The notes under the pieces: model-generated
What the model was told of the DNA's origin: nothing
The model's database searches: none
The model's input: only the letters and a program-made list of their open reading frames with translations
Assembly: GCA_013299115.1 (NCBI GenBank)
Contig: JAAFKA010000013.1
Coordinates: 62,001 to 126,000 of the forward strand
DNA from: Cytophagales bacterium
GTDB taxonomy: Bacteria; Bacteroidota; Bacteroidia; Cytophagales; Thermoflexibacteraceae
DNA length: 64,000 bases
Direction: 5' to 3'
Translations under genes and position numbers: made by a program
Shown: piece after piece, positions 4,775 to 51,434 of the stretch
Layout of the letters: every line of letters starts with the position of its first letter
Position numbering within the stretch: the stretch's first letter is position 1

Positions 4775-7700
4775 ATGAACAAAAATCTCGTAAATTATCC
4801 AATTCGTTTTGGTACTTTACTATTAGCAGGTGCTTCTTTGGCGGCTTGTAGCAAAACTACCTTCACCGAAACAGATGCATTTAGACTTGAAGCACAACGT
4901 GCTAGAGTAACTCGCCAAATTGACTCTTTGTCAAGAGTACAAGCAATGACAGACAGAGTAGCTTTGTTAAACTGGCAAAATGCAGTTGACCAATTGGAAA
5001 AAGCCAATGCAGGTGGTAAAGTATTTTATACTGTAATCCCTGTGAGAGGTACTGATATGGTGTCTGGTTCTGGTGGACCTACACAAGGTGGACGTACTGA
5101 GAATGCGATTGCTAACGCAGTGGTAACAATCACGCAGTTCGGTAGAGTTTCTACAGTAGGTATGACTTCTATGCCTTCTGGTTCAGGCGGTGGACCTATT
5201 ACTACACCTACAACACCAATAGCTAACGTAAACTTCGCTGCAAATGGTGTGTTTACTTTTGGTGATTTGAGAAGTGGTGAAGTTACGGTAAACATCACTG
5301 CTGCAAACATGACAGAGGTAAACTATGTAGCTAACTTGACTCCTGATGGTGGTGTGCCTAACAACGCTACTATCTATGTAGGTAACGTAGTGCCTATGTT
5401 TGAGTTAAGCACAGATGCTACAAGAATGGCTACTGTAAGAGGTAACGTGTATTACGAAGGTGATTTGACTAACGACAGAGAAGAGCCTTTGACTAATGAG
5501 GTGTTTAATGGCGGTGCTGGTACTGGAACAAGATCTATTGTTACAGCAGCTATCGACATGACAAGAAACGACGGTTCTGTAAACGGTTTGCCTTATTTCC
5601 ACCAAAGATTCTTAGCTGAGTCTAATGGCGAAGGTGTAAACTCTTTCGGCGTACCTGTTCGTTCTGGTGCAATCCAAAGAATAGCTTACTCTGCTACGCC
5701 ACCTACTGGTAGCACTGATATTTTGAGAAGTGGTTTGACTGCTGGCACACAAGCTGGTGGTATGAATGTATCTACTTACTCTATGTTAGTTCCTTCTACG
5801 GCTGGTGGTTTGCCAATTCAGTTGCGTTTCGCTGAATTTGCTGATTACAGAACGTATTACAACGAAAGAGGTCAGTTGATTCCTAAAACTGTACAAACTG
5901 GTAGCACAGGTCCTCGTCCTGAAAGATTCTTGTACGGACCTACAGTAGTGCCTACAGATGTTCCTGTTGGTGTTTCTCGTCCACAAATTTCTATTCAGGC
6001 ATTTACTACGCCTGCCGTAGTTTCTGCTACATTTACAGCACAAGTAGCTGGTGCTTGGAAATCTAATTTCGAAGTGCCAGGTGTAAACGGTGTTCCAGGT
6101 AACCACACTGCACCAAATTTGAGAATTAACAATTCTGGTTTGTATATGACTGCACCTAACGTAACCTTGACAGCTGCTGCTGGTTCTGGTGCTACGTTTA
6201 CTGCAATTATGAGTGCTTATCAACCATTTAATCCTCCTGCTAATACAACTTCATTAGCTTATTTGGGTGCTGCACAGCCTACTGCTCAACAATTGGCTGC
6301 TTCTGATTGGAATCACCAAGGCGTTGTGGGCTTAAACATTGGCAATGCTGGTGCTGGTTATGCCGCTGATGACACTTTCTTGCCTTTGACTTTCACAAGA
6401 ACAGACATTGTTAGCAACATTGGTTTTGGTGGTCAATTTACGCCAAGTGGAACAACTGGTAGTGGTTTGGTGCCTTTGAACTCCTTTGCTCAAGTAATTG
6501 ACGGTGGTGCAGGTTTTATTTTTGCAACACCTTCAACAGGATTAGGAGAAGGTATTACTGCTGGCGGTACATTTACTAACTACTTGCCAACGCCTGTATT
6601 TACTGAAACAGACCAGCCTACTTCGGCTGACCCTACAAGAGGTTATACTACGCCTGGTGTTACTATTACTCAAGCTGCAGCAAGATTATTTGTAGATTAT
6701 AATGCTACTTACAATCTTGCAGGTGTGCCTATTGCTCCTATTCCTCCTGTTCCTCCTGCTACTGTTGGTACGCCTGGCACACCTGCTGGTGTTGGTGTAA
6801 CATCTGGTCTTGTAGGTGGTACTGGTGGTGCTCCTTTTGGTGGTGTGGGTGCTATCCAAGAAGTATCTATTACTGGTACTGGTTTTTATCCTGCTGGTAG
6901 CATGCCATTTATTAACTTCTCTTTTGGAGAAACAATTAGTACAAATGGTTTCTTAGCTAATGCAGCTCCTGCGGTAGGTGGTAAAAACTTGTTCATTTCT
7001 GGTGGACCTGGTCTTATTAAATTCAACGCAGGTGCAGGTGCTACTAACATTTCTACTACTGAAGCAGAGAGAATATTCTCTGTGGGTGCAGGAAATGTTA
7101 ATTCATTTACATCTAATAGCGTAACATTTGCAGCTAATCAAGGATGGGGTTCTCGTTATACTTTTGTACCAACGATTCAAATTACCCCAAATGCTGCTAC
7201 AGAAGCTGTTATTGGTGCGCAAACTGCTGCTAATGTAAGAAGTATGCCTGTAGTTGCAACGGTAAGTAACAATCCTAACAGCCCAAGTTTTGGTAAAATT
7301 GTTAAAATCCAATTGACTTCAACGCCTATTGCGGGTTTGAACTCTGGTGCTGATAACAATGACTTCTTAGGTGGTGCTGCTCCGTTTGCTGTGGGTACTA
7401 CTTTAATTGGTATCAACGTAATTCCTAGTCGTTATGGTAATACCTTGCGTGTATTAGGTAGAGTAGGTGGTGCACAAACGCAAAGCACAGGTACAGGTAT
7501 CAATTCTTACTCGTACAACAATGCGAACACTACGTTGAATACTGATGTAGCCCGTATTGCAAGTGCTTCTAACGGTATTTCTTCTAATACTTTGGATGGA
7601 GTAACGATTGGTGTTGCTGCTGGCGTGCCTATTATTGGTACACTTAGCGGTGTATTGCCTGGTGCTACAGTTCAACAAGTTGGTTACTTATTCGGTAATG

Positions 7701-9091
7701 AAATGTTGGTAGCTTTCTCTGCTCCTACTGCTCCTTCTGTAAACAATGCGTTTGCTTGGGGTGTACCTGTATTAAACAACACTGGTAACGGAACAGGTAA
7801 CACATTGCTTGGTGCTCGTATCTTGAATCCAGGTTCTGGTTATGCTGCGCCTGTTTCAAATGCTGGTAACTTTACTTCAAATACTACTGCTACGTTAGTT
7901 CCTAATCCGTTCTTCCGAGGCAATAGAGTTACTTTGAGTAATGGTACTGCATCAGCAACAATTTCCCAACCTGCTGATATTGCTTCTGCAAATACACCAT
8001 TAGGTTTGACTGGTACTGCTCAGTTGTTGGCTGGTGACATCGTTGGTTTCTTGAATGCGATAGCTAATGCTTCTGCTGAAATTCAAAGAGGTAGAACTCC
8101 TGCTACACCTGGTTTCATTGATTTCACTATCACTGCTGCTGGTGCTGGTTATGCTACTACGCCTGATGTGATTGTATTCGGTGGTGGTTTGGATTTGACA
8201 GATTTCACTGGTGCTTTTGGTACAGCTCCTGCTGCTAACCCTGTTTCTCCAAGCGTGGGTGGTTTGATTAGATTAACTGGCACTGGTGCTGTCAATTCTG
8301 CTAATGCTGCAATACCTAACATTACTGCTGCTGGTAACAGAATCAATAGCGTAGGTGGTTTAATTCGTGTAGGTGGTGCTGGTCCTGCTGGTAGTGGTGG
8401 TAGAATCACTTTTGCTGCTAACTCTGCTCCTGCTTACAACATCACTGCTACTACGCCTTTGAACGTAAGAGTAATAGACCGTTTGTCTGAAGATTTGACA
8501 AGACAGACTAATGCAGTTGCTGGACCTACAGGTGTAGGTGCTACGGCTATCATTACGCCTTCTGCTACTAATCCTCAGTCTGGTGTAGTATCTGCGGTTA
8601 CGTTTGGTAGATTAACACCTAACGGTGCTGCTGGTACAGACATGATAACACAAGTTGCTTACGCTGGTAGCTATTCTCAAATCACACAAGGTAATGCTTC
8701 GGCTACAGGTGGTGCATTTACACCAGCTACCTTGCCTGTGTTCTTTGAAATGCCACAAACTGGCTTTGTAGGTGCTACGGCTGCTACTGGTACTGCTTTG
8801 ATTGAAGTAGATAACGGAAACACTTCTGCAAGACACAGAAGAATCTACGCTATCCGCGTTGATAACGGTGGTTCTGGTTATGGTGTAGGTAACAGATGGC
8901 AACGTCAAGATACTGGTACTTCTGTTCACAGAGCTAATCAACCATTCACAGTGTTTGGTGGCTTTGAAGGCGGTGGTATCAATGGTATCTACAACAGTCA
9001 TTTGAACCAAGACAACATCAGATTTGATGCATTTACTGGTATGACTTATACAAGAGATGCACATTACGGTACAGGTCGTTTACTTGACTAA
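4775..9091 (+). CDS. Very long repetitive surface lipoprotein with GxGY repeats
   Basis: A 1438-residue exported protein of unknown function. The signal peptide ends in the lipobox LAAC|S (Cys near residue 25). Residues of about 30-75 look helical and coiled-coil-like (EAQRARVTRQIDSL). The rest is Gly/Ala/Thr/Asn/Pro-rich beta-type sequence with scattered short GxGY/F motifs near residues 526 (GAGYA), 577 (GAGFI), 702 (GTGFY), 1020 (GSGYA), 1122 (GAGYA) and 1367 (GSGYG). Codon use is strikingly narrow (GGT, GCT, ACT, GTA), unlike neighbours, which suggests high expression. It has its own promoter and terminator. I recognise no catalytic domain; a secreted adhesin or sheath-like structural role is a guess. 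Confidence 0.75.
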   Translation: MNKNLVNYPIRFGTLLLAGASLAACSKTTFTETDAFRLEAQRARVTRQIDSLSRVQAMTDRVALLNWQNAVDQLEKANAGGKVFYTVIPVRGTDMVSGSGGPTQGGRTENAIANAVVTITQFGRVSTVGMTSMPSGSGGGPITTPTTPIANVNFAANGVFTFGDLRSGEVTVNITAANMTEVNYVANLTPDGGVPNNATIYVGNVVPMFELSTDATRMATVRGNVYYEGDLTNDREEPLTNEVFNGGAGTGTRSIVTAAIDMTRNDGSVNGLPYFHQRFLAESNGEGVNSFGVPVRSGAIQRIAYSATPPTGSTDILRSGLTAGTQAGGMNVSTYSMLVPSTAGGLPIQLRFAEFADYRTYYNERGQLIPKTVQTGSTGPRPERFLYGPTVVPTDVPVGVSRPQISIQAFTTPAVVSATFTAQVAGAWKSNFEVPGVNGVPGNHTAPNLRINNSGLYMTAPNVTLTAAAGSGATFTAIMSAYQPFNPPANTTSLAYLGAAQPTAQQLAASDWNHQGVVGLNIGNAGAGYAADDTFLPLTFTRTDIVSNIGFGGQFTPSGTTGSGLVPLNSFAQVIDGGAGFIFATPSTGLGEGITAGGTFTNYLPTPVFTETDQPTSADPTRGYTTPGVTITQAAARLFVDYNATYNLAGVPIAPIPPVPPATVGTPGTPAGVGVTSGLVGGTGGAPFGGVGAIQEVSITGTGFYPAGSMPFINFSFGETISTNGFLANAAPAVGGKNLFISGGPGLIKFNAGAGATNISTTEAERIFSVGAGNVNSFTSNSVTFAANQGWGSRYTFVPTIQITPNAATEAVIGAQTAANVRSMPVVATVSNNPNSPSFGKIVKIQLTSTPIAGLNSGADNNDFLGGAAPFAVGTTLIGINVIPSRYGNTLRVLGRVGGAQTQSTGTGINSYSYNNANTTLNTDVARIASASNGISSNTLDGVTIGVAAGVPIIGTLSGVLPGATVQQVGYLFGNEMLVAFSAPTAPSVNNAFAWGVPVLNNTGNGTGNTLLGARILNPGSGYAAPVSNAGNFTSNTTATLVPNPFFRGNRVTLSNGTASATISQPADIASANTPLGLTGTAQLLAGDIVGFLNAIANASAEIQRGRTPATPGFIDFTITAAGAGYATTPDVIVFGGGLDLTDFTGAFGTAPAANPVSPSVGGLIRLTGTGAVNSANAAIPNITAAGNRINSVGGLIRVGGAGPAGSGGRITFAANSAPAYNITATTPLNVRVIDRLSEDLTRQTNAVAGPTGVGATAIITPSATNPQSGVVSAVTFGRLTPNGAAGTDMITQVAYAGSYSQITQGNASATGGAFTPATLPVFFEMPQTGFVGATAATGTALIEVDNGNTSARHRRIYAIRVDNGGSGYGVGNRWQRQDTGTSVHRANQPFTVFGGFEGGGINGIYNSHLNQDNIRFDAFTGMTYTRDAHYGTGRLLD

Positions 9092-40183: not shown

Positions 40184-41176
40184 TTAACTAAACTTTAATT
40201 GATGGTTTACAGAAATTTTTGATTTTTTTCCATTGATACTTGTTGACCCCAGATGATTGCCTTCCTTTTTGCTTATATTCGTATTATGAAATTCAAAATC
40301 ACCATGCAAAGTGTCCATTGATAAATGCTTTACACTACCTGTTGCTTTATTTCGTGGCTTGAATACAAGTCTATTATTTTTAGATTTTAGGTAAGTATCA
40401 AGTTGCCAACCATTAATTAAGGCTACTTTTTCGCCTAATAGTTGCTTTTCGTTATGCTCTTGTGTATAAGTTTCAGGCGAATATTTTTTTCCATCATGCT
40501 TAACCTCTGTATAAGCATCTAAAAATAAATTAGATAAATCCTTTAATGGAAGTGCATTTGTATCATCTATTTTCCAATGGCTAAAATCAAAATCTGTTTT
40601 GGGTTTGACGATTTCAACTTTTGACACCAATTTATCAAAAACTTTTTTGTCATCTACAATACTTTGCACAACTGCATATAAATAAAAATTTTGTATATCA
40701 GACAAATCCTCTATACTTTTTAGGGCTATAAGAGTTACTTTTTGATTATTTGTATCCTCTCTCAATATATGAATATTACCATAACGAGTATCACACTCAG
40801 CAGAAATATCAATTACAAAAAATAATTCATCAGGATTTAAGAATTTTCTTTTAGCACATTCTGCAATAGAAGTTTGATTTATGGGGTCTTGATTTGAAAG
40901 AGATAAGGGCGAAAAATAATTGATGCTTGGCTTTTGCTTACTATGTTCTTCCCAATCAACAAAACACCTTGTTAGCGGGGTATCAAACATAGCATTTATT
41001 TTTGTGTTCAAATCTGAATTTCCCTCGTTCAAAATAAGTAAATCTTCTTGAATAGTAAGCCATTTATTCATAGAAACAAGTACCTCTTGATTTTGCTCAT
41101 CAAGAATATCGTATAAATCAAGCAGAAAAGCATTTTTATTTTCTGAAAAACTTCTATCATTTAGGAATATTTGCAT
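40184..41176 (-). CDS. Putative effector with colicin E3-like ribonuclease C-terminus
   Basis: A 330-residue protein from the ATG at 41176 (MQIFLNDRSF), overlapping the ATPase gene by 20 bases; upstream ATGs at 41209 and 41236 are possible. The first 270 residues match nothing I know. The last 60 contain MDTLHGDFEFHN: D288, H291 and E295 have the same spacing as the catalytic D510, H513, E517 of colicin E3 (WDSQHGELE), and this is followed by GNHLGSTSINGKK, as in E3 GQHLGSFDPKTG. Colicin E3 cuts 16S rRNA in the decoding site. I infer a ribosome-targeting effector, kept in check or triggered by its two partners. No immunity gene is visible. Confidence 0.6.
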   Translation of the reverse strand: MQIFLNDRSFSENKNAFLLDLYDILDEQNQEVLVSMNKWLTIQEDLLILNEGNSDLNTKINAMFDTPLTRCFVDWEEHSKQKPSINYFSPLSLSNQDPINQTSIAECAKRKFLNPDELFFVIDISAECDTRYGNIHILREDTNNQKVTLIALKSIEDLSDIQNFYLYAVVQSIVDDKKVFDKLVSKVEIVKPKTDFDFSHWKIDDTNALPLKDLSNLFLDAYTEVKHDGKKYSPETYTQEHNEKQLLGEKVALINGWQLDTYLKSKNNRLVFKPRNKATGSVKHLSMDTLHGDFEFHNTNISKKEGNHLGSTSINGKKSKISVNHQLKFS

Positions 41177-42320
41177 TTTTCTTTTTTTCCTTAAAAAGTT
41201 GATTAACATCGAGGTTATATTGTTGGAAAAAATCATCTTCCCATTCCTGAATAAAACCGTCGTCTTGTAAGATAATTTCTTTTACTATGCTGTTGGGTGC
41301 TAACAAATTACGTTTGAAGAAAAATATTTTTGCTTTTTCTAAATCTAATATTTTCTTGGCAACAGCTAAACGAGTTCCGTTAAATATATGTTCACTATGT
41401 GTTTCACAAAAAATCTGTACGCCATTTTGTGCAGCCAAACATAGTAGTTCGGCAAGTTTAGACTGCCCTTTTGGGTGGAGGTGAGATTCTGGGTTTTCGA
41501 TGATAAGTAAATCTCCTTTTTCTGCGGTTAGCAAAGCTAAGATTACAGAAAAAACATAACTCACACCAAAACCTATATTTTTAGGTTTAAAATCAATGGT
41601 TGTATCTTCTATTTGGCTTTCATTGAGAAAACGGAACTTATATTCAACAACTATTTTTGTGCTATCATTTTCGTCATAATCAGCCTCTACCATAATATTA
41701 GGACTAATTTCACTCAACCAAGCATTCATTTGGTCTTTGATTAAATTAGAAGTAGCCTTAGAATGTTTTAGACTTTCATATAAAATTGGTGTTAGCCTAT
41801 TTTTTACAAAATACTGCCAAGCATATTCGCCTGTTTTGCCAAAATCTTTATTTTCAAGTTTTTTATTATCTGTACTATATCTGCCTTCATCACTTATTCT
41901 TTCTGCTTTTAGGTATTGGAATTTTTTAGGAGAAAAAATGGCTTCTTGTTTCGTATCTGCTTTTAAGACAGAGCTTTTAATTGAAAGTTGCGTATTATCT
42001 TTATTACTTTCAGAATAACCAAAAGTTTCAATATTTATCTTCTGTTCTTTAACATCAAAGATAAATTTAATAGAATTTTCTTCTTTAAATAAACAGAAAA
42101 TTGCATCTTTATATGTACCAATATCTATATATTCTCCTTTCAGGTTTAGATACTTTTCTTTTTTTGATAGTGTATCAGAAGATTGCCTAAGCAAAAGCAA
42201 ACTTTGAATTACAGAAGATTTACCCATACCATTTAAACCCGTCAAAATGTTTAAATTGGCACAGTTTATTTCAATATCTTTTAAAGATTTGAAGTTTTTT
42301 ATATGTATATAATTTATCAT
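41157..42320 (-). CDS. AAA/OLD-type ATPase (DUF3696-like)
   Basis: A 387-residue ATPase of the SMC/ABC-like family. Walker A is GLNGMGKSS at residues 28-36, the signature region lies near IGFGVSYVFSVILALLTAEK, Walker B is LLIIENPESHLHP with the catalytic Glu near 275, and the H-loop is ETHSEHI. The C-terminal segment FIQEWEDDFFQQYNLDVNQLF resembles the short DUF3696 end. Such ATPases act as sensors or motors in several phage-defence systems (for example PARIS, Septu-like and OLD types). It starts inside the stop of the DUF262 gene (ATGA overlap) and runs into the effector gene, so the three are co-translated. The region is visibly more AT-rich than sucC upstream. Confidence 0.85.
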   Translation of the reverse strand: MINYIHIKNFKSLKDIEINCANLNILTGLNGMGKSSVIQSLLLLRQSSDTLSKKEKYLNLKGEYIDIGTYKDAIFCLFKEENSIKFIFDVKEQKINIETFGYSESNKDNTQLSIKSSVLKADTKQEAIFSPKKFQYLKAERISDEGRYSTDNKKLENKDFGKTGEYAWQYFVKNRLTPILYESLKHSKATSNLIKDQMNAWLSEISPNIMVEADYDENDSTKIVVEYKFRFLNESQIEDTTIDFKPKNIGFGVSYVFSVILALLTAEKGDLLIIENPESHLHPKGQSKLAELLCLAAQNGVQIFCETHSEHIFNGTRLAVAKKILDLEKAKIFFFKRNLLAPNSIVKEIILQDDGFIQEWEDDFFQQYNLDVNQLFKEKKKNANIPK

Positions 42321-43861
42321 TTAGTGATTTCTTTTATGAATTGTTCAATGGTTGAAAACCGAATTCGTAAATTTTCACGAGTATAGGGTTGTTCCTCAAT
42401 AGATTGCGTAAATTTAGCTATTTTATTAAGTGTAAGGGCTGCTTCTTTAACAATTTTTTTTCTACTTTTCAAAATTTCTTGTTGTTCTTCCGTAGCCATT
42501 GAAACAGCATAAGTCCAAATTTCGAAAATAGAATTAATAAAACCTGTATTTTGTCCGCCTATCATAGCTTTTGTAAAAGCAACTTCTCCAAAAATATAAT
42601 TTATGACAAATAAGGCTTCTCCAAACTCTTTGTGATAATTAGTTATTAATTCTTCGTCAATAGTAAATATTTGTACCATTGCATCATCGAGCAAGTCGGT
42701 ACTATTTGTTTTTATATCCTCATAATGTGTCATGCGAAAAGCCAAATAACGCAAAGCTATTTCTCTGTCTAACATTCGTTCTTTATTAATTTCGGAAACA
42801 GGAACTACTTTTTCAAAAGCTGGCGTAATGCTCTTATCTGTAAATTTTGCCAACCAATTTGCTGCTTTTCCTTGATTAAGTGCATGGCGAATTTCTTGCG
42901 AAGTTAGATTCAAAGCACTTGTGTTAATAGACCTAAAAATTTTATATTTAACAGCTTTTGGGGTTGGAGGCTCAATAATATAAGTTATAGCTTCATATTC
43001 TTCAATATTTCTTTGTGCAGAACGAGGAAGTTGCCCAAAAGTTTTGCCTTGATATTGAGGTAAATAATATAATTCTTGTAATACAAAACTTTTATCTATA
43101 ACAAATTCCTTAATAGCTGTTAGACGTTGAAGTCCATCTACAATTTGCCAAATATTTTCCTCTTCAGTAGTTTCTGTAGCATCAAAATAAAAAGCAGGAA
43201 TAGGCTGTTTTACTATCAAGGCTTCCATTAATCTACTTTTAGTATCAGTTGTCCATAAACCAGCTTTTCGTTGAAAACCTGTATTGAGATTAATTTCTCC
43301 ATATTTTATGCGTTTCAATATTTTATCCAAAGTCATCACACCTTGCCTAACATTAATCGTGAGTGTATCAAGAGGTAAACGGTCAGGTCTAAGACTTTCT
43401 TTTTGAATTTCTACAATAGTTTCAAAATTATTGGGAATGATGATATTATTTGCTTTTTCCAAATTATTTTCTGCTCTTAATGCTTTTTTAAGTTCATTTT
43501 TCACATAAAATTTCCCCGAATCATTGAGCAAAATTTGACGTAAATACGCACTATGTGGGCGAATAATTAATAATTTTTCTGAAGCAATAACATTCCTTTC
43601 TTCTGTAAAAAGAGCCAAGTTAAAACTTTCACTATCAAAGATAAAATCACCATACTGAAGTTTTAATAATTTTTTAGCAGTGTAATGTTTTTGAATATTT
43701 TTATAAGGAACATATTTAGTATTTTCGATAAGAATAGTATCCTCTTTAAAACAGTTGGAATTTAAGAACAAATAAGCTCCTTCACTGTCGTTATCAGTCA
43801 AATGTTGAGATAAAATAGGTATTCCCCACGATATATTTTCCACTAAATCTTTAAGTTGCAT
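42317..43861 (-). CDS. DUF262 (ParB/Srx-like nuclease fold) protein with S-subunit-like N-terminus
   Basis: A 514-residue protein, first gene of the cassette. Residues of about 180-290 carry the DUF262 core: GFQRKAGLWTTDTKSRLMEA, IPAFYFDA, and the DGxQR motif at 242-246 (IVDGLQRLTAIKEF). DUF262 is the domain of GmrS and of BrxU-type enzymes that act on modified phage DNA. The C-terminal part is helical and has no HNH (DUF1524) motif that I can find, unlike full GmrSD. The first 170 residues (GAYLFLNSNCF, LKLQYGDFIFD, KLLIIRPHSAYLRQILLN) resemble a type I specificity-subunit recognition domain. I infer DNA sensing. A weak -7 element is on the minus strand at 43886-43893. Confidence 0.82.
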   Translation of the reverse strand: MQLKDLVENISWGIPILSQHLTDNDSEGAYLFLNSNCFKEDTILIENTKYVPYKNIQKHYTAKKLLKLQYGDFIFDSESFNLALFTEERNVIASEKLLIIRPHSAYLRQILLNDSGKFYVKNELKKALRAENNLEKANNIIIPNNFETIVEIQKESLRPDRLPLDTLTINVRQGVMTLDKILKRIKYGEINLNTGFQRKAGLWTTDTKSRLMEALIVKQPIPAFYFDATETTEEENIWQIVDGLQRLTAIKEFVIDKSFVLQELYYLPQYQGKTFGQLPRSAQRNIEEYEAITYIIEPPTPKAVKYKIFRSINTSALNLTSQEIRHALNQGKAANWLAKFTDKSITPAFEKVVPVSEINKERMLDREIALRYLAFRMTHYEDIKTNSTDLLDDAMVQIFTIDEELITNYHKEFGEALFVINYIFGEVAFTKAMIGGQNTGFINSIFEIWTYAVSMATEEQQEILKSRKKIVKEAALTLNKIAKFTQSIEEQPYTRENLRIRFSTIEQFIKEITK

Positions 43862-46640: not shown

Positions 46641-47543
46641 TTACTCTTTTTGATTTCGTAGATTTCTTATTTGCTCAACTGTCAAGTCTGTCATTTGAGC
46701 AATAAAATCATCAGTAGAGCCTGCTAAAATCATTTTTTTCGCAATTTCAACAGACCTTTTATAATTTTCGTTTTGCCTTATTTTTTCCTCTGCTTCTCTT
46801 AACCTTTCCTCTGCTTCTGCTTGCAACGAAAGTACTTCACTTGCTTTAAGATGCAAATAGTCTAAATAACGATTGTAACCGTATTGTTGCTCTTTGTCCA
46901 AACGCATGATATCCAAGACTTCTTTTGCTTCTGCCAAACCTTTTGCCTTGAAACTATCTTTGACTTCACTATTTTTTAAGAAATAAATCCATTCATCTAA
47001 GGTATCTTTTGCAATATTGTTAAACTGATTAACTTTAATGATATAGTATTCAGGAAAAATATCAGCAACTTCTTTTTTGGTAAATGTTTCTTTTTGTTGG
47101 ATTGAAAGTTGCAAAATATCTTTTTCGTGCAAACCTTCAAAATTCGTTTTACCTTTATACACATAGTCTTTACCTTGTCCTAAATCAAAATAAACGACAT
47201 TGATAGAAATTACTTTTTTGATTTGCGAATATGCCTGCCCCAAACCCAAATGCTCTGCTAAGGCTTTGGAAGAACCATAAGCCATTCTATGAAAGTAGTC
47301 AATTTCATAAGTATTTTGAATTTCTACAATAACTAACTCATTTTTAGAGTTTTGCGTTAAAATATCCACTCGATTGTACTTGTCATCATCAGTTTCTTGA
47401 TTGCCTTCACTTTCTAATATGCTGTCTATTTTAATGGTATCAAATAGCAATTCAGATAAAAAACCTTCTAATACAGCAAAATTTGCTTTATTACGAAGTA
47501 GTTTTTTGACTGCCCAATCAAAACGAATTAGTTTTTTGCTCAT
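46641..47543 (-). CDS. Rpn family recombination-promoting nuclease, second copy
   Basis: A 300-residue paralogue of the protein at 23573-24415. It begins with KLIRFDWAVKKLLRNKANFA, typical of the longer Bacteroidota subfamily, and the nuclease core is YNRVDILTQNSKNELVIVEI followed by QNTYEIDYFHRM (D..ExQ). The middle has VNQFNNIAKDTLDEWIYFLK, then a charged coiled coil (EAEERLREAEEKIRQNEN), and the C-terminal AKKMILAGSTDDFIAQMTDL with VEQIRNLRNQ. The two copies differ strongly outside these motifs, so they are old paralogues or separate acquisitions. It lies alone between pdhA and a VOC gene. Confidence 0.88.
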   Translation of the reverse strand: MSKKLIRFDWAVKKLLRNKANFAVLEGFLSELLFDTIKIDSILESEGNQETDDDKYNRVDILTQNSKNELVIVEIQNTYEIDYFHRMAYGSSKALAEHLGLGQAYSQIKKVISINVVYFDLGQGKDYVYKGKTNFEGLHEKDILQLSIQQKETFTKKEVADIFPEYYIIKVNQFNNIAKDTLDEWIYFLKNSEVKDSFKAKGLAEAKEVLDIMRLDKEQQYGYNRYLDYLHLKASEVLSLQAEAEERLREAEEKIRQNENYKRSVEIAKKMILAGSTDDFIAQMTDLTVEQIRNLRNQKE

Positions 47544-47639: not shown

Positions 47640-48038
47640 CTAAGGTTCTTGTATTTTTGGCTCTATCAAATCCCAAAGATTGCCGTATAAATCTTCAAAA
47701 ACTAACACTTTTCCATAAGGTTCTATGCTGGGTTCTCTGACAATCTTAATTTGGTGGTTTAACAAATTTTGATAATCTCGTTGCAAATTATCTGTATGCA
47801 AAAACAAAAATACTCTGCCTCCTGTTTGGTTTCCTATCCTACTTTTTTGTTCTTCATTACTTGCCTTTGCCAACAGTAAAGCACAAGCTGACCCTTGCGG
47901 ACATACTTTTACCCATCTTTTGGTGGCAGACAACACCGTATCTTCCAAAAGCACAAAGTTGAGTTTTTGGGTGTAAAACGCAAGGGCTTCATCATAATCT
48001 GCTACCACTAAGGTAAGGGCTGCTATTTTCTGTTGCAT
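47640..48038 (-). CDS. VOC (glyoxalase/bleomycin-resistance fold) protein
   Basis: A 132-residue protein with the paired beta-alpha-beta-beta-beta VOC pattern: IAALTLVVADYDEALAFYTQ, LNFVLLEDTVL, KRWVKVCPQGSACALLL, GRVFLFLHTDNLQRDYQNLL, and GKVLVFEDLYGNLWDLIEP. Metal ligands are not obvious at the usual first position. The last strand with D-xx-GN-xW-D-LIEP is that of many uncharacterised family members. It may act in detoxification, but substrate and even activity are unknown. A long palindrome cluster lies upstream (48066-48303). Confidence 0.88.
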   Translation of the reverse strand: MQQKIAALTLVVADYDEALAFYTQKLNFVLLEDTVLSATKRWVKVCPQGSACALLLAKASNEEQKSRIGNQTGGRVFLFLHTDNLQRDYQNLLNHQIKIVREPSIEPYGKVLVFEDLYGNLWDLIEPKIQEP

Positions 48039-48065
48039 TGGGCAAAAAACTTTATATAAATGTAG

Positions 48066-48303
48066 TGTGGACTTTAGTCCAATGCTATTAAGCTAAGAAT
48101 AACTCACAACCTCGAAGAGGTTGAACAACAATAGCCCTACGTGCAACGTAGGGAAGTATTTGCAAATGTGCATCCAACCCCGAAGGGGTTGAACATTCGT
48201 GTAGCAATATGTCATTGTTCAACCCCTTCGGGGTTGTGGAGTGACTTTGCACCTTTTTCCCTACGTTGCACGTAGGGCTATTAATGTTCAACCTCTTCGA
48301 GGT
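48066..48303. repeat. Palindrome cluster, including inverted copy 2 of the 9309-9391 block
   Basis: In order: a hybrid half-palindrome (GTGTGGACTTTAGTCCAATG, from 48066), an AACCTC-GAA-GAGGTT hairpin near 48109, CCCTACGTGCAACGTAGGG (48135-48153), CAACCCCGAAGGGGTTG (about 48175), CAACCCCTTCGGGGTTG (about 48219), CCCTACGTTGCACGTAGGG (48259-48277) and AACCTCTTCGAGGTT (48289-48303). The 83 bases at 48071-48153 match the reverse complement of 9309-9391. It fills most of the 343-base gene-free stretch 48039-48381. Confidence 0.9.
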
Positions 48304-48310
48304 TGTAAAG

Positions 48311-48374
48311 AAACTATCTAAGGTTTAGGAAAAAAGCAAGTTTATGGCTACTAAAAAGAATAAAAAATTTTTAA
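48311..48374 (+). repeat. Direct repeat, left copy, bounding a 2-kb segment
   Basis: The 35 bases 48311-48345 are identical to 50295-50329, and similarity continues for about 30 AT-rich bases beyond. The two copies are in the same orientation 1984 bases apart. Confidence 0.9.
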
Positions 48375-48381
48375 TAAATTC

Positions 48382-49068
48382 TCAAAGAACTATATTTTCT
48401 AATTCTTGAGATTTTACTAAATTTTTTCTGTAACTCCAAATTGTAAACGTAATAATTGGTTGCCCAATAGCAATGGGTATGATTAATAGCAAAACTTGGG
48501 GCAAAAATGGGAATAATTTTGAGTTATTTACCAAAAAAGCTGTTATAGCTGCAATAAACCCATGCGACATTCTAAAAATATGAATAAAAAGCCAATACAA
48601 TTTATTTTCGGGCTTTTTAATGTAATTAAACAAATCGACACCGCAACAATAAAGTCCGATAGTTGAAAACGAAAACAAAACAATGGAATAGAAAATATCT
48701 TTGCCCAAATTTATGATACCTAACAAAATGAATACAAAAGAAGTCAAGACCATACCAATCGTTAAAGCCCAATCTACGATTTGCGGTTTTTGCCCTTTGT
48801 GTAGATTTTTGATAAATAAAATTCTATAGCCCGAAGCTGCTTGATAAAAACTTATAATGGCTATGGGTATAAAAATTTGATAATCAGGTCTAAAAATTCC
48901 TGCATTCAGTCCAAGAGCTGTGGTAACAGTCATTGACCAAAAAAACACTTTGCCTGCTATTCTGTGGTAAAGCTGACCTTTTTTTGTTGTGATTGCAATA
49001 AAGCCACTCAACAAGGTCAAACTTCCTGCTAAAATGTGTATAGGCTTTAAAATGTCTAAAATGTTCAT
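48382..49068 (-). CDS. DUF2306-like multi-pass membrane protein
   Basis: A 228-residue inner-membrane protein with about seven hydrophobic segments. The opening PIHILAGSLTLLSGFIAITT plus KKGQLYHRIAGKVFFW resembles DUF2306 proteins (helix, then K-G-x-x-H-R-x-x-G). Further helices are VVDWALTIGM-like, FILLGIINLG and FPFLPQVLLLIIPIAIGQP, and the His of HIFRMSHGFIAA may bind a cofactor. Function is not known for the family. The gene lies downstream of the Fic gene, between the two direct repeats, and has a pair of TGTATAA palindromes just before its start that could control it. Confidence 0.75.
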   Translation of the reverse strand: MNILDILKPIHILAGSLTLLSGFIAITTKKGQLYHRIAGKVFFWSMTVTTALGLNAGIFRPDYQIFIPIAIISFYQAASGYRILFIKNLHKGQKPQIVDWALTIGMVLTSFVFILLGIINLGKDIFYSIVLFSFSTIGLYCCGVDLFNYIKKPENKLYWLFIHIFRMSHGFIAAITAFLVNNSKLFPFLPQVLLLIIPIAIGQPIITFTIWSYRKNLVKSQELENIVL

Positions 49069-49110
49069 TTCTTGTGTTTTTTAGGTTTTACAGGCTTGTG
49101 GAAGTACCTC

Positions 49111-49180
49111 ATGTATAAGAATTTCGTTTTTTTATACATGAACTAAGCAATATGTATAAGAATTGCATTTTTTTATACAC
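49111..49180. promoter_or_regulatory. Two tandem TGTATAA-N15-TTATACA operator-like palindromes
   Basis: Copies at 49111-49139 and 49152-49180 share ATGTATAAGAATT and TTTTTTTATACA and are 41 bases apart, about four helical turns. They lie in the 113-base gap between the Fic stop (49182) and the start of the membrane protein (49068), so they are placed to control the latter. The second one abuts the Fic stop codon. Confidence 0.65.
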
Positions 49181-49181
49181 A

Positions 49182-50249
49182 TCATACTTTATTTGCAAAT
49201 AAATCGAACAAAGGTTGGTTGATATAATAATTGGTTTTCCCTATTTGGTGTTTTACCAAAAATCCACCAGTTACCAATGCGTTGAGGTATTTGGCTGCTG
49301 TAATTCTGTTTACTTGTAAATCATTTTCTACAAATTCTATTTTGGTATAAGGGTGTTTAAAAAGGTTGTTGAGCAAATCCTGACTGTAAAAGCTATATTT
49401 TTCCCTAATTTGGTGTTTGTATTGTTGCATCAATTCCTTCATTTTTTGTATCAAGACAATAGTTTCTTTTGCCACTTGTTCCACGCCGTCGAGCATAAAA
49501 ATAATCCAATTTTCCCATTCATTATTATCTCTTACGGCTTGCAATTTTTGGTAATAAGCCTGTTTATTTCTAATTACATAACGACTCAAATATAAAATAG
49601 GCAAATCTAACAAGCCTTGCAAAATAAGGTACAACACATTAATAATGCGTCCTGTACGTCCATTGCCATCATAAAAAGGGTGAATACTCTCAAACTGAAA
49701 GTGAATAATTGCCATTTTTACCAACGGGTCGGTGTCTGCCATTGCATTGTCGTTGATATAATTTACCAAATTACTCATCAAGTTGGCTATGGTGTCATAG
49801 TCTTGTGGCGGTGTATAAATTATTTCTCCTGTACTTGCATTTTTAAGTGTAGTGCCTGCTTGCCTTCTGAATCCTGCTTTGTTTTGCTCCAAAAGTTCTT
49901 GCATATAAATAATGTGATTGGTCGTCAGCAAACCTGTATTCTGAACAATCTCAAAACCATTTTTTAGGGCTGTTGCATAGTTTTGCACTTCTTTGGAGGC
50001 TACCGAAGTTACCATAGTAGAAAAAATACTTGCTTTAAACAGTTCATCATGCGTTGTGATGATATTTTCTACAGCCGAACTATCTTTTGCCTCTTGCAAG
50101 AGCAAGGTATTAATAAGAATAGCCTCGTTAGGAATAGTTTTGGCTATGCTGTTCAACGCTGCCAATTCTCTACTTGCCCTTGTTGTTTTTTTCAAAACAT
50201 TTTTGGTTTCTATCTCAAAAGGCAAGGGTAGAGTTAAAATGGAATACAT
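49182..50249 (-). CDS. Fic family protein (AMP transferase-type) with C-terminal winged helix
   Basis: A 355-residue protein that probably attaches AMP or a related nucleotide to a target protein. The Fic motif is complete: HPFYDGNGRTGR from H190. An N-terminal autoinhibitory helix motif SSAVEN (S57 to N62, of the S-x3-E-N type) precedes it, making this a class II Fic protein held inactive by its own helix. The C-terminal 80 residues look like a winged helix (FVENDLQVNRITAAKYLNAL, GKTNYYINQPLFDLF), common in free-standing Fic proteins. It and the membrane-protein gene are bounded by direct repeats, suggesting a mobile cassette. Target unknown. Confidence 0.93.
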   Translation of the reverse strand: MYSILTLPLPFEIETKNVLKKTTRASRELAALNSIAKTIPNEAILINTLLLQEAKDSSAVENIITTHDELFKASIFSTMVTSVASKEVQNYATALKNGFEIVQNTGLLTTNHIIYMQELLEQNKAGFRRQAGTTLKNASTGEIIYTPPQDYDTIANLMSNLVNYINDNAMADTDPLVKMAIIHFQFESIHPFYDGNGRTGRIINVLYLILQGLLDLPILYLSRYVIRNKQAYYQKLQAVRDNNEWENWIIFMLDGVEQVAKETIVLIQKMKELMQQYKHQIREKYSFYSQDLLNNLFKHPYTKIEFVENDLQVNRITAAKYLNALVTGGFLVKHQIGKTNYYINQPLFDLFANKV

Positions 50250-50294
50250 TGTTTTGAATTTGCTAAATAAAACTACTCAATAAACTAATTACTA

Positions 50295-50358
50295 AAACTA
50301 TCTAAGGTTTAGGAAAAAAGCAAGTTTATTGGCACTAAAAAAATAAAAAGTTTTTAAT
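50295..50358 (+). repeat. Direct repeat, right copy
   Basis: 35 identical bases (50295-50329) with 48311-48345 and AT-rich similarity after them. It sits just upstream of the aldo/keto reductase, 50 bases before that start codon. Confidence 0.9.
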
Positions 50359-50411: not shown

Positions 50412-51434
50412 ATGCAATACAAACTTTTTGGCAAAACAGGGCTTCGCGTATCTGAATTGTGCTTGGGTGCCATGACCTTCGGCGAAGAATGGGGGACAGG
50501 AGCAAACAAACAAGAAAGCAAAAATATTTTTGATGCTTTTGTAAAGGCTGGGGGCAATTTTATAGACACTGCCAACCGTTATACAGAAGGGACAAGTGAA
50601 AAATTTTTGGCAGAATTTATCGGCTTAGAAAGAGATAGATTTGTGCTTGCCTCCAAATATTCTTTGTATGACCGCAGAGATGACATTAATGCAGCAGGCA
50701 ACCACCGCAAAAATTTGATAAGGTCTTTGGAAGGCAGTCTTAAAAGATTGAATACCAATTATTTAGACATTCTCTGGGTTCATGCTTGGGATTTTACCAC
50801 TTCTCCCGAAGAAGTCATGCGAGGTTTAGACGATATGGTGAGGCAGGGCAAAGTCTTGTATGTAGGCGTATCCGACACGCCTGCATGGGTCATAGCACAG
50901 GCAAACACCTTAGCCGACTTGCGTGGGTGGACTTCTTTTGCAGGTTTGCAGATAGAATACAGCCTGATACAACGGACAGCCGAAAGAGATTTGATACCCA
51001 TGGCAAAACATTTTGGCATGGCTATTACGCCTTGGGCTCCGTTGGGGGCAGGTATGCTCACAGGCAAGCACAACGAAAAAGCTGCCGAAGGTGCAAGATT
51101 GACCGAAAAAAGTGTGAAAATGAACGAAAGAAACCGCAATATAGCCAAAAAAGTGAGTGAAATTGCCCAAAAACTCAAAGCAAGCCCTGCCCAAATTGCT
51201 TTGAATTGGCTACGTCAACAGCACCAGCAAATTATTCCCATTGTAGGTTCTCGCAAAGTGCCACAAATTCAAGATTCGTTGGGTTGCATCAATTTCCAAA
51301 TTCCTGCCGAATTTATGAAAGAACTAACCGAAGTGAGTGCCATAGAGTTGGGTTTCCCACACGACTTTTTGGCTTCGCCCGGCGTACAAGATGTGATGTT
51401 TGCAGACTTTAAAGATACGTTGCAAAAAAGATGA
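50412..51434 (+). CDS. Aldo/keto reductase
   Basis: A 340-residue NADPH-dependent oxidoreductase of the (beta/alpha)8 AKR fold, related to the YajO/YakC-like group. Motifs are FGKTGLRVSELCLGAMTFGE at the start, FIDTANRYTEGTSEKFL (catalytic Asp and Tyr), LASKYSLY (catalytic Lys), LDILWVHAWDF (active-site His), and the cofactor region IPIVGSRKVPQIQDSLG near 290. It reduces aldehydes or ketones; substrate unknown. It overlaps the following SDR gene by four bases (ATGA), so translation is coupled, and the threonine dehydrogenase follows 33 bases later. Confidence 0.93.
   Translation: MQYKLFGKTGLRVSELCLGAMTFGEEWGTGANKQESKNIFDAFVKAGGNFIDTANRYTEGTSEKFLAEFIGLERDRFVLASKYSLYDRRDDINAAGNHRKNLIRSLEGSLKRLNTNYLDILWVHAWDFTTSPEEVMRGLDDMVRQGKVLYVGVSDTPAWVIAQANTLADLRGWTSFAGLQIEYSLIQRTAERDLIPMAKHFGMAITPWAPLGAGMLTGKHNEKAAEGARLTEKSVKMNERNRNIAKKVSEIAQKLKASPAQIALNWLRQQHQQIIPIVGSRKVPQIQDSLGCINFQIPAEFMKELTEVSAIELGFPHDFLASPGVQDVMFADFKDTLQKR

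Follow-up and report, generated by a model that had tools for sequence, protein, structure and literature searches.

The window, i.e., the whole stretch of 64,000 nucleotides that was analyzed, harbors a segment in which a gene for a Fic protein and a gene for a membrane protein are enclosed by two direct repeats. The segment and its surroundings contain the following features:

40184-43861, genes for NsnA, NsnB and (weakly) NsnC, PADLOC matches
46641-47543, Rpn-family PD-(D/E)XK gene, TIGR01784 above the cut-off
47640..48038, minus strand, glyoxalase-like gene of the left flank
48064..48308, no strand assigned, REP-like palindromic repeated element of 245 bp, directly adjoining the left direct repeat with its right end; a neighbor, not part of the unit
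48311..48375, plus strand, left direct-repeat copy, between the REP-like element and the stop codon of the DUF2306-like gene
48382..49068, minus strand, gene for a DUF2306-like membrane protein of 228 amino acids, downstream of the dyad array
49112..49138, no strand assigned, dyad 2 of the candidate operator array, 27 bp, starting 44 bp past the fic stop codon and 41 bp from dyad 1
49153..49179, no strand assigned, dyad 1 of the candidate operator array, 27 bp, starting 3 bp past the fic stop codon
49182..50249, minus strand, gene for a SoFic-type class II Fic protein of 355 amino acids with Fic_N, Fic (HPFYDGNGRTGR), the inhibitory motif SSAVEN and a C-terminal winged helix
50294..50323, minus strand, candidate fic promoter (TTG-N20-TAnnTTT) inside the right repeat; a weak candidate, with 112 such matches in the 64-kb window
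50295..50358, plus strand, right direct-repeat copy, in the stretch separating fic from the divergent aldo/keto reductase gene
50412..51434, plus strand, aldo/keto reductase (AKR) gene of the right flank

The REP-like element is composed of alternating short hairpins (CAACCTC-GAA-GAGGTTG and CCCTACG-TGCAA-CGTAGGG), and a query containing it had 105 matches in its own genome, itself included, often as inverted pairs or arrays. The Rpn-family gene has family matches at numerous positions of six related genomes that were searched. The Nsn genes, which we take to be a Menshen defense system, are separated from fic by about 5 kb that include sucC and pdhA.

The fic gene is intact, and both the catalytic and the inhibitory motif are present in its translation, in agreement with the first-pass annotation, which had placed a class II Fic protein in this segment. 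The Pfam cut-offs for Fic_N, Fic and SoFic-like_C (26.7, 24, and 27) were all exceeded (86.7, 67.3, and 71.5 bits, respectively), and the PADLOC SoFic model matched over its full length (residues 7-352, E-value 7.1e-117). The score against the NCBIfam equivalog model for SoFic (NF046030) was 358.9 bits and did not reach the cut-off of 550. By its sequence, the protein is thus a relative within the SoFic family rather than the equivalog, and it is predicted to be an anti-phage AMPylase of this family. An AlphaFold model (mean pLDDT 77.6) could be superimposed on Shewanella SoFic (3zcn) with a Z-score of 41.5 and an rmsd of 2.0 over 349 residues at 38% identity. The name SoFic is also carried by the recent PDB entries 9tc4, 9tch, 9tcl, and 9tb0. 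A pattern search for SoFic in viral contigs gave no match.

The membrane-protein gene that had been called DUF2306-like is present as described, but its PF10067 score of 23.7 lies below the Pfam gathering cut-off of 31.6. Relatives with 75-81% identity were found in three genomes of another family (f14), whereas in the own family only one of 12 other genomes (G009) had matches, at 33% identity. The fic gene has no close relative in these 12 genomes either, the best matches showing 35-40% identity over fragments; its closest relative, with 79% identity, is that of locus L082, where the dyad array is also located 3′ of fic. Nucleotide homology to L082 extends from the fic start (50250) through the end of the array to position 49108, and homology to the three DUF2306 relatives begins at positions 49083, 49081, and 49068. 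None of 14 fic loci (12-13 kb each) contained a DUF2306 relative beside fic, and no fic gene was found in 6-11 kb around the three DUF2306 loci of the other family, one of which is cut 321 bp upstream by a contig end. Since the homologies to the two sources meet between 49108 and 49083 and the best relatives of each gene lack the other, the segment appears to have arisen by two acquisitions that were joined, not as a two-gene module. Both genes look horizontally acquired, judged by the distribution of their relatives. The GC content of the enclosed DNA is 33.0% compared to 43-46% in the AKR, SDR/epimerase, pdhA, and sucC genes. Since other neighbors are AT-rich too, namely the adjoining Rpn gene (31.3%), the glyoxalase gene (37.8%), and the Nsn operon (29.9%), the GC content does not single out the segment.

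The direct repeats reported earlier were confirmed: positions 48311-48345 and 50295-50329 are identical over 35 bp on the same strand at a distance of 1984 bp, and the similarity noted beyond them extends in a gapped alignment over 48311-48375 and 50295-50358, with 62 of 66 columns identical. The two copies differ by three 1-base gaps and one mismatch, none of them in the first 35 bp. Chance does not account for the repeat, since shuffling the window 100 times gave an expectation of 0.00 for the 27-mer core. No copies beyond these two were found in the 5.5-Mb assembly at up to three mismatches, a 33-mer of the repeat was absent from all 290 other genomes of the order that were searched, and the left copy, taken as 70 bp, had no match among 72,556 plasmid records. 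Within 464 kb of the own genome, 7 of 21 stretches contained exact repeats of at least 30 bp at a distance of 0.5-5 kb, most of which consisted of several blocks on one diagonal, i.e., duplicated genes. Isolated single-block pairs numbered three among the matches listed, including the one described here, so that with about one such pair per 150 kb it is unusual rather than singular. The predicted stability of a hairpin in the direct repeats was below the shuffle mean, and a search for RNA families at the repeats gave nothing beyond microRNA matches to the REP palindrome that stayed below threshold.

The segment had been proposed to be a mobile or recombinational cassette. Its content does look foreign, with no close fic gene in the family and the best DUF2306 relatives in another one, but mobility of the segment is not supported: it contains no recombinase, its ends are unique, and its genes point to two sources. 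Neither the own genome (at up to three mismatches) nor the 290 genomes of the order yielded other cassettes with the same ends. A syntenic site was found neither via AKR orthologues nor via the neighborhood DNA, the same genus included; in the sole genome of this genus, a draft of about 330 contigs, the window's neighbor genes lie on separate contigs, and among nine AKR-orthologue loci of 10-12 kb each only L072 had kept a neighbor, RsgA, out of 17 further window genes that were tested. A tRNA attachment site was considered and rejected, the window containing no tRNA. Locus L019 could not be read as an empty fic site, its contig ending about 120 bp past the dyads. Excision by recombination between the repeats is possible in principle.

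That fic and the DUF2306-like gene enter and leave as a unit, with the 35/65-bp repeats serving as attachment or target sites, would account for direct repeats around acquired genes, and some plasmid-borne SoFic genes do adjoin recombinase or integrase genes. We nevertheless consider this distinctly improbable, because the repeat ends have no further copy in the genome and none in 290 others, no recombinase is encoded inside, the two genes come from separate sources, four differences between the copies argue against a fresh event, and this genome has one such isolated repeat pair per roughly 150 kb among the matches listed. Alternatively, the repeats might be two copies of one promoter region, the intergenic stretch between the glyoxalase and aldo/keto reductase genes having been duplicated on arrival of the insert such that each side kept its signals. 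The TTG-N20-TAnnTTT match in the right copy points into fic, and the left copy has the same orientation and is located upstream of the minus-strand glyoxalase gene; on the other hand, this pattern was matched 112 times within the 64 kb scanned and not once in the left copy, the 245-bp repeated element separates the left copy from the glyoxalase gene, and no relative examined keeps this locus. We regard this origin as possible rather than probable. In general, the repeats might represent a duplicated intergenic or promoter stretch left by an insertion rather than active recombination sites, to which the data point only weakly. Our preferred interpretation, which we consider fairly probable on the basis of these comparisons, is that the segment consists of a horizontally acquired SoFic-type gene with its own twin-palindrome candidate operator, joined to an unrelated DUF2306-like gene within an old duplication of about 65 bp.

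In plasmid loci L225, L226, L228, L229, L261, and L268, SoFic genes are located beside or near recombinase or integrase genes.

The direct repeats alone are of minor interest, and the lasting point of the locus is the candidate SoFic operator array. A matrix scan detected no dyads upstream of the window's fic gene. A strict version of the dyad pattern has no match in the own genome and a single match in each of two among 39 genomes: one match is located before a fic gene, and the other follows a gene with a relative in front of fic in L082. Because the pattern was thus found beside fic and a fic-linked gene, SoFic-type loci were collected, 106 with a fic match, giving 104 unique loci including the window after removal of three duplicates among 107; class-wide relatives were represented by 29 plus 60 loci, with the lowest-scoring and some truncated ones left out. 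Homologous dyads are located after fic in L082 and before fic in other loci. For counting, the dyad matrix was applied in a leave-one-locus-out manner, and sites with 27/28-bp dyads within 300 bp of fic were considered. Dyads were present beside fic in 32 of 42 loci with at least 53% identity, the window included (25 upstream and 7 downstream, the latter also including the window), in 9 of 21 loci with 45-53% identity, and in 3 of 41 loci below. In total, these loci gave 68 sites, whereas the reversed flanks gave 4 and fic coding sequence with a combined length of 109,814 bases gave 2. The spacing of dyad pairs was 40-42 bp in 22 of 28 cases, i.e., about four helix turns, and 82-83 bp in four more, as expected for a skipped site. 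An earlier count without the leave-one-out procedure gave the same picture and was set aside. When 464 kb of the own genome were scanned, five hits were obtained, and the window's two dyads scored best among them.

Dyads were also found in 8 of 10 held-out plasmid loci, including loci from Gammaproteobacteria and a cyanobacterium, two of the eight sharing their site sequence; these loci represented 10 of 12 rows among the matches listed, with 771 records matched. A further set of plasmid loci, mostly alphaproteobacterial (14 of 40 rows among the matches listed, 79 records), contained three of 14 that passed the fixed matrix. Inspection by eye of others in this set revealed the same layout with different half-sites, for example TGTTAAG, TGTTCG, and TGTCGAT. 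When palindromes paired at 40-42 bp were scored without recourse to a motif, 32 of 248 flanks reached at least 18, compared to 0.0 shuffled flanks and to 8, 4, and 8 flanks with three other sets of spacings. At a threshold of 17 the excess was modest, with 48 flanks compared to 1.2 after shuffling and 23, 25, and 19 with other spacings. The flanks used for this score included the matrix-scanned loci and some pairs resembling ordinary terminator hairpins.

Besides the window, eight loci with the array downstream of fic were inspected; the next gene is hsdR in four of them, a same-strand gene without a Pfam match in one, and an opposed gene in three. In a ninth such locus, L265, the next gene is likewise opposed. 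L082 contains a partial tandem copy (5280-8985) composed of a 217-aa gene, fic, the array, a similar 218-aa gene, and a decayed fic end with decayed dyads. In L091 (5409-6346), the fic match stops at residue 136, and the next ORF, judged by eye, looks like a Y1/REP-associated transposase. The R-M locus L149 (891-1451) has a gene for a SLATT_4 two-transmembrane effector directly upstream of the SoFic gene.

Within the half-site, only position 5, occupied by T or A, is strongly variable. When the association of this base with the variable Fic residues was determined for 49 proteins, residues 320, 316, 319, and 338 occupied ranks 1-4 of 317 variable columns. According to the AlphaFold model, residues 315-327 form the recognition helix and residue 338 lies in the wing turn. 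In a rerun with fewer permutations, residue 320 was again first, residue 28 outside the winged helix was second, and residues 316, 319, and 338 were among the top five; columns 314-327 (11 of 308) ranked above the others (p 0.003 in a one-sided rank test), and the whole C-terminal domain was not clearly above the catalytic part (p 0.12). With arginine at position 320, base 5 was T in seven of seven loci; with asparagine or serine, T was absent or made up a quarter in 12 of 14 loci; lysine occurred with either base. After correction for descent, three supported independent pairs remained, on average 1.6 concordant and 0.0 discordant, and with only three independent contrasts the association cannot be significant after this correction. 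A clear switch occurred in the window's own clade, where the window and L082 have lysine and T, L089 serine and A. Before position 5 was tested as the sole strongly variable base, every half-site position had been scanned against every column; odd loci at near-invariant positions dominated the top of this ranking, and the best 20 included no column of the recognition helix except residue 313 (untrimmed numbering). The near-duplicate or truncated loci L137, L148, L140, L017, L018, and L091 were left out of the covariation tests and the motif-free score.

Five loci (L150, L154, L160, L162, and L165) share a recognition-helix class RxTA(I/V)RYL, and upstream of fic in four of them the half-sites look different by eye (TCAAA, CCCAAA), as if the SoFic family followed a readable protein-DNA code.

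Instead of being a protein operator, the twin dyads might form RNA hairpins that act as terminators, as an attenuator, or as an antitoxin-like RNA. They fold strongly, with a z-score of -2.64 for the window's array as DNA and a mean of -3.5 over 79 sites, and the palindrome is extended in a site-specific manner: flank positions 4-8 pair in 39% of the cases within a site compared to 26% when different sites of one locus are combined, a difference reached in 0 of 2000 permutations. As an operator does not need a palindrome beyond the motif and a hairpin would, this extension counts against a pure operator. In contrast, the arms at position 5 are unpaired (A-A or T-T) in 17 of 79 sites, no T-run is present 3′ of the window's array in the direction of fic, the phasing of about 41 bp is fixed, and base 5 is best associated with the recognition helix. 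An RNA function in place of an operator is rather unlikely in our opinion. L137, L148, L140, L017, L018, L091, L231, and L234 were left out of the folding and extension analyses, with L091 kept in the count of position 5 arms.

For the operator, we propose the following scenario. A SoFic dimer would bind the dyads via its C-terminal winged helix and repress the adjoining promoter. Arrays before fic would serve an autoregulation that holds the toxic AMPylase at a low level, and arrays after fic would act on the next gene, which is the DUF2306-like gene in the window and hsdR in four relatives. The window's fic gene itself may start from the promoter in the right repeat, a weak candidate, and since the array is not located before fic, autoregulation of this fic gene is not obvious. 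Controller proteins of R-M systems regulate neighboring genes, and control of the neighbor gene by the array in this manner is possible but less certain. Extended to the family, SoFic-type AMPylases might also be sequence-specific controllers: their winged helix would read a family-wide 27-bp palindromic operator phased at about 41 bp, with half-sites changing with the recognition helix, and would set their own level and, in type I R-M operons, that of the restriction subunit, thereby coupling restriction to abortive AMPylation. We put this forward tentatively, with the chances in our own judgment somewhat against it. SoFic is a known single-gene defense whose control is poorly understood; a conserved operator by the gene, if true, would assign a concrete job to the winged helix and could explain the low level of a toxic enzyme.

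A search of openly licensed literature found no description of a SoFic operator, and a 2023 paper states that DNA binding by SoFic had no experimental demonstration (PMC10628234). Shewanella SoFic (SO_4266, PDB 3eqx/3zcn) and EcSofic of E. coli share with the window's protein the order Fic_N-Fic-winged helix, the class II inhibitory motif, and the fold over the whole length. EcSofic is accompanied by a downstream gene for a 47-aa antitoxin, whereas the 113-bp gap between the window's fic and the next gene is too short for one. In the available part of the EcSofic paper, we found no mention of a DNA operator; activation on phage infection is called elusive there, and the wild-type gene is described as hard to clone, its leaky expression being toxic (PMC12249575), to which a self-binding operator would fit. 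The C-terminal domain of EcSofic is reportedly important for toxicity through its contact with the AMPylase domain (PMC12249575). This role differs from DNA binding and neither requires nor excludes a self-binding operator.

DNA binding is known from related proteins, here compared on the basis of the available parts of the respective papers. CbFic2 of Coxiella is also a class II Fic protein with a winged helix and binds DNA, but its binding was measured on random DNA and no operator was given in that part (PMC10628234). CccR of Yersinia pseudotuberculosis, a class II Fic protein with a C-terminal HTH, binds to palindromes in the promoter of its own gene and acts as its own repressor (PMC9755527), and likewise the window has dyads beside its own fic gene. 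As in the case of this relative, the dyad array is most probably bound by SoFic acting as a regulator. The two systems differ in that CccR is a secreted effector with 29% identity over 45% to Shewanella SoFic, in that its site is a single pair of inverted repeats of 10 bp, spaced by 26 bp (PMC9755527), and not tandem 27-bp dyads at 41 bp, and in that CccR has its sites in its own promoter, whereas the candidate sites of the window follow fic, the position being upstream in 25 of the 42 loci of the close group. In the case of RptR from type I R-M defense islands, tandem palindromic repeats also control a defense operon, but RptR is a separate repressor of 6-bp palindromes (PMC12255303), whereas the candidate regulator in the window is the Fic enzyme itself.
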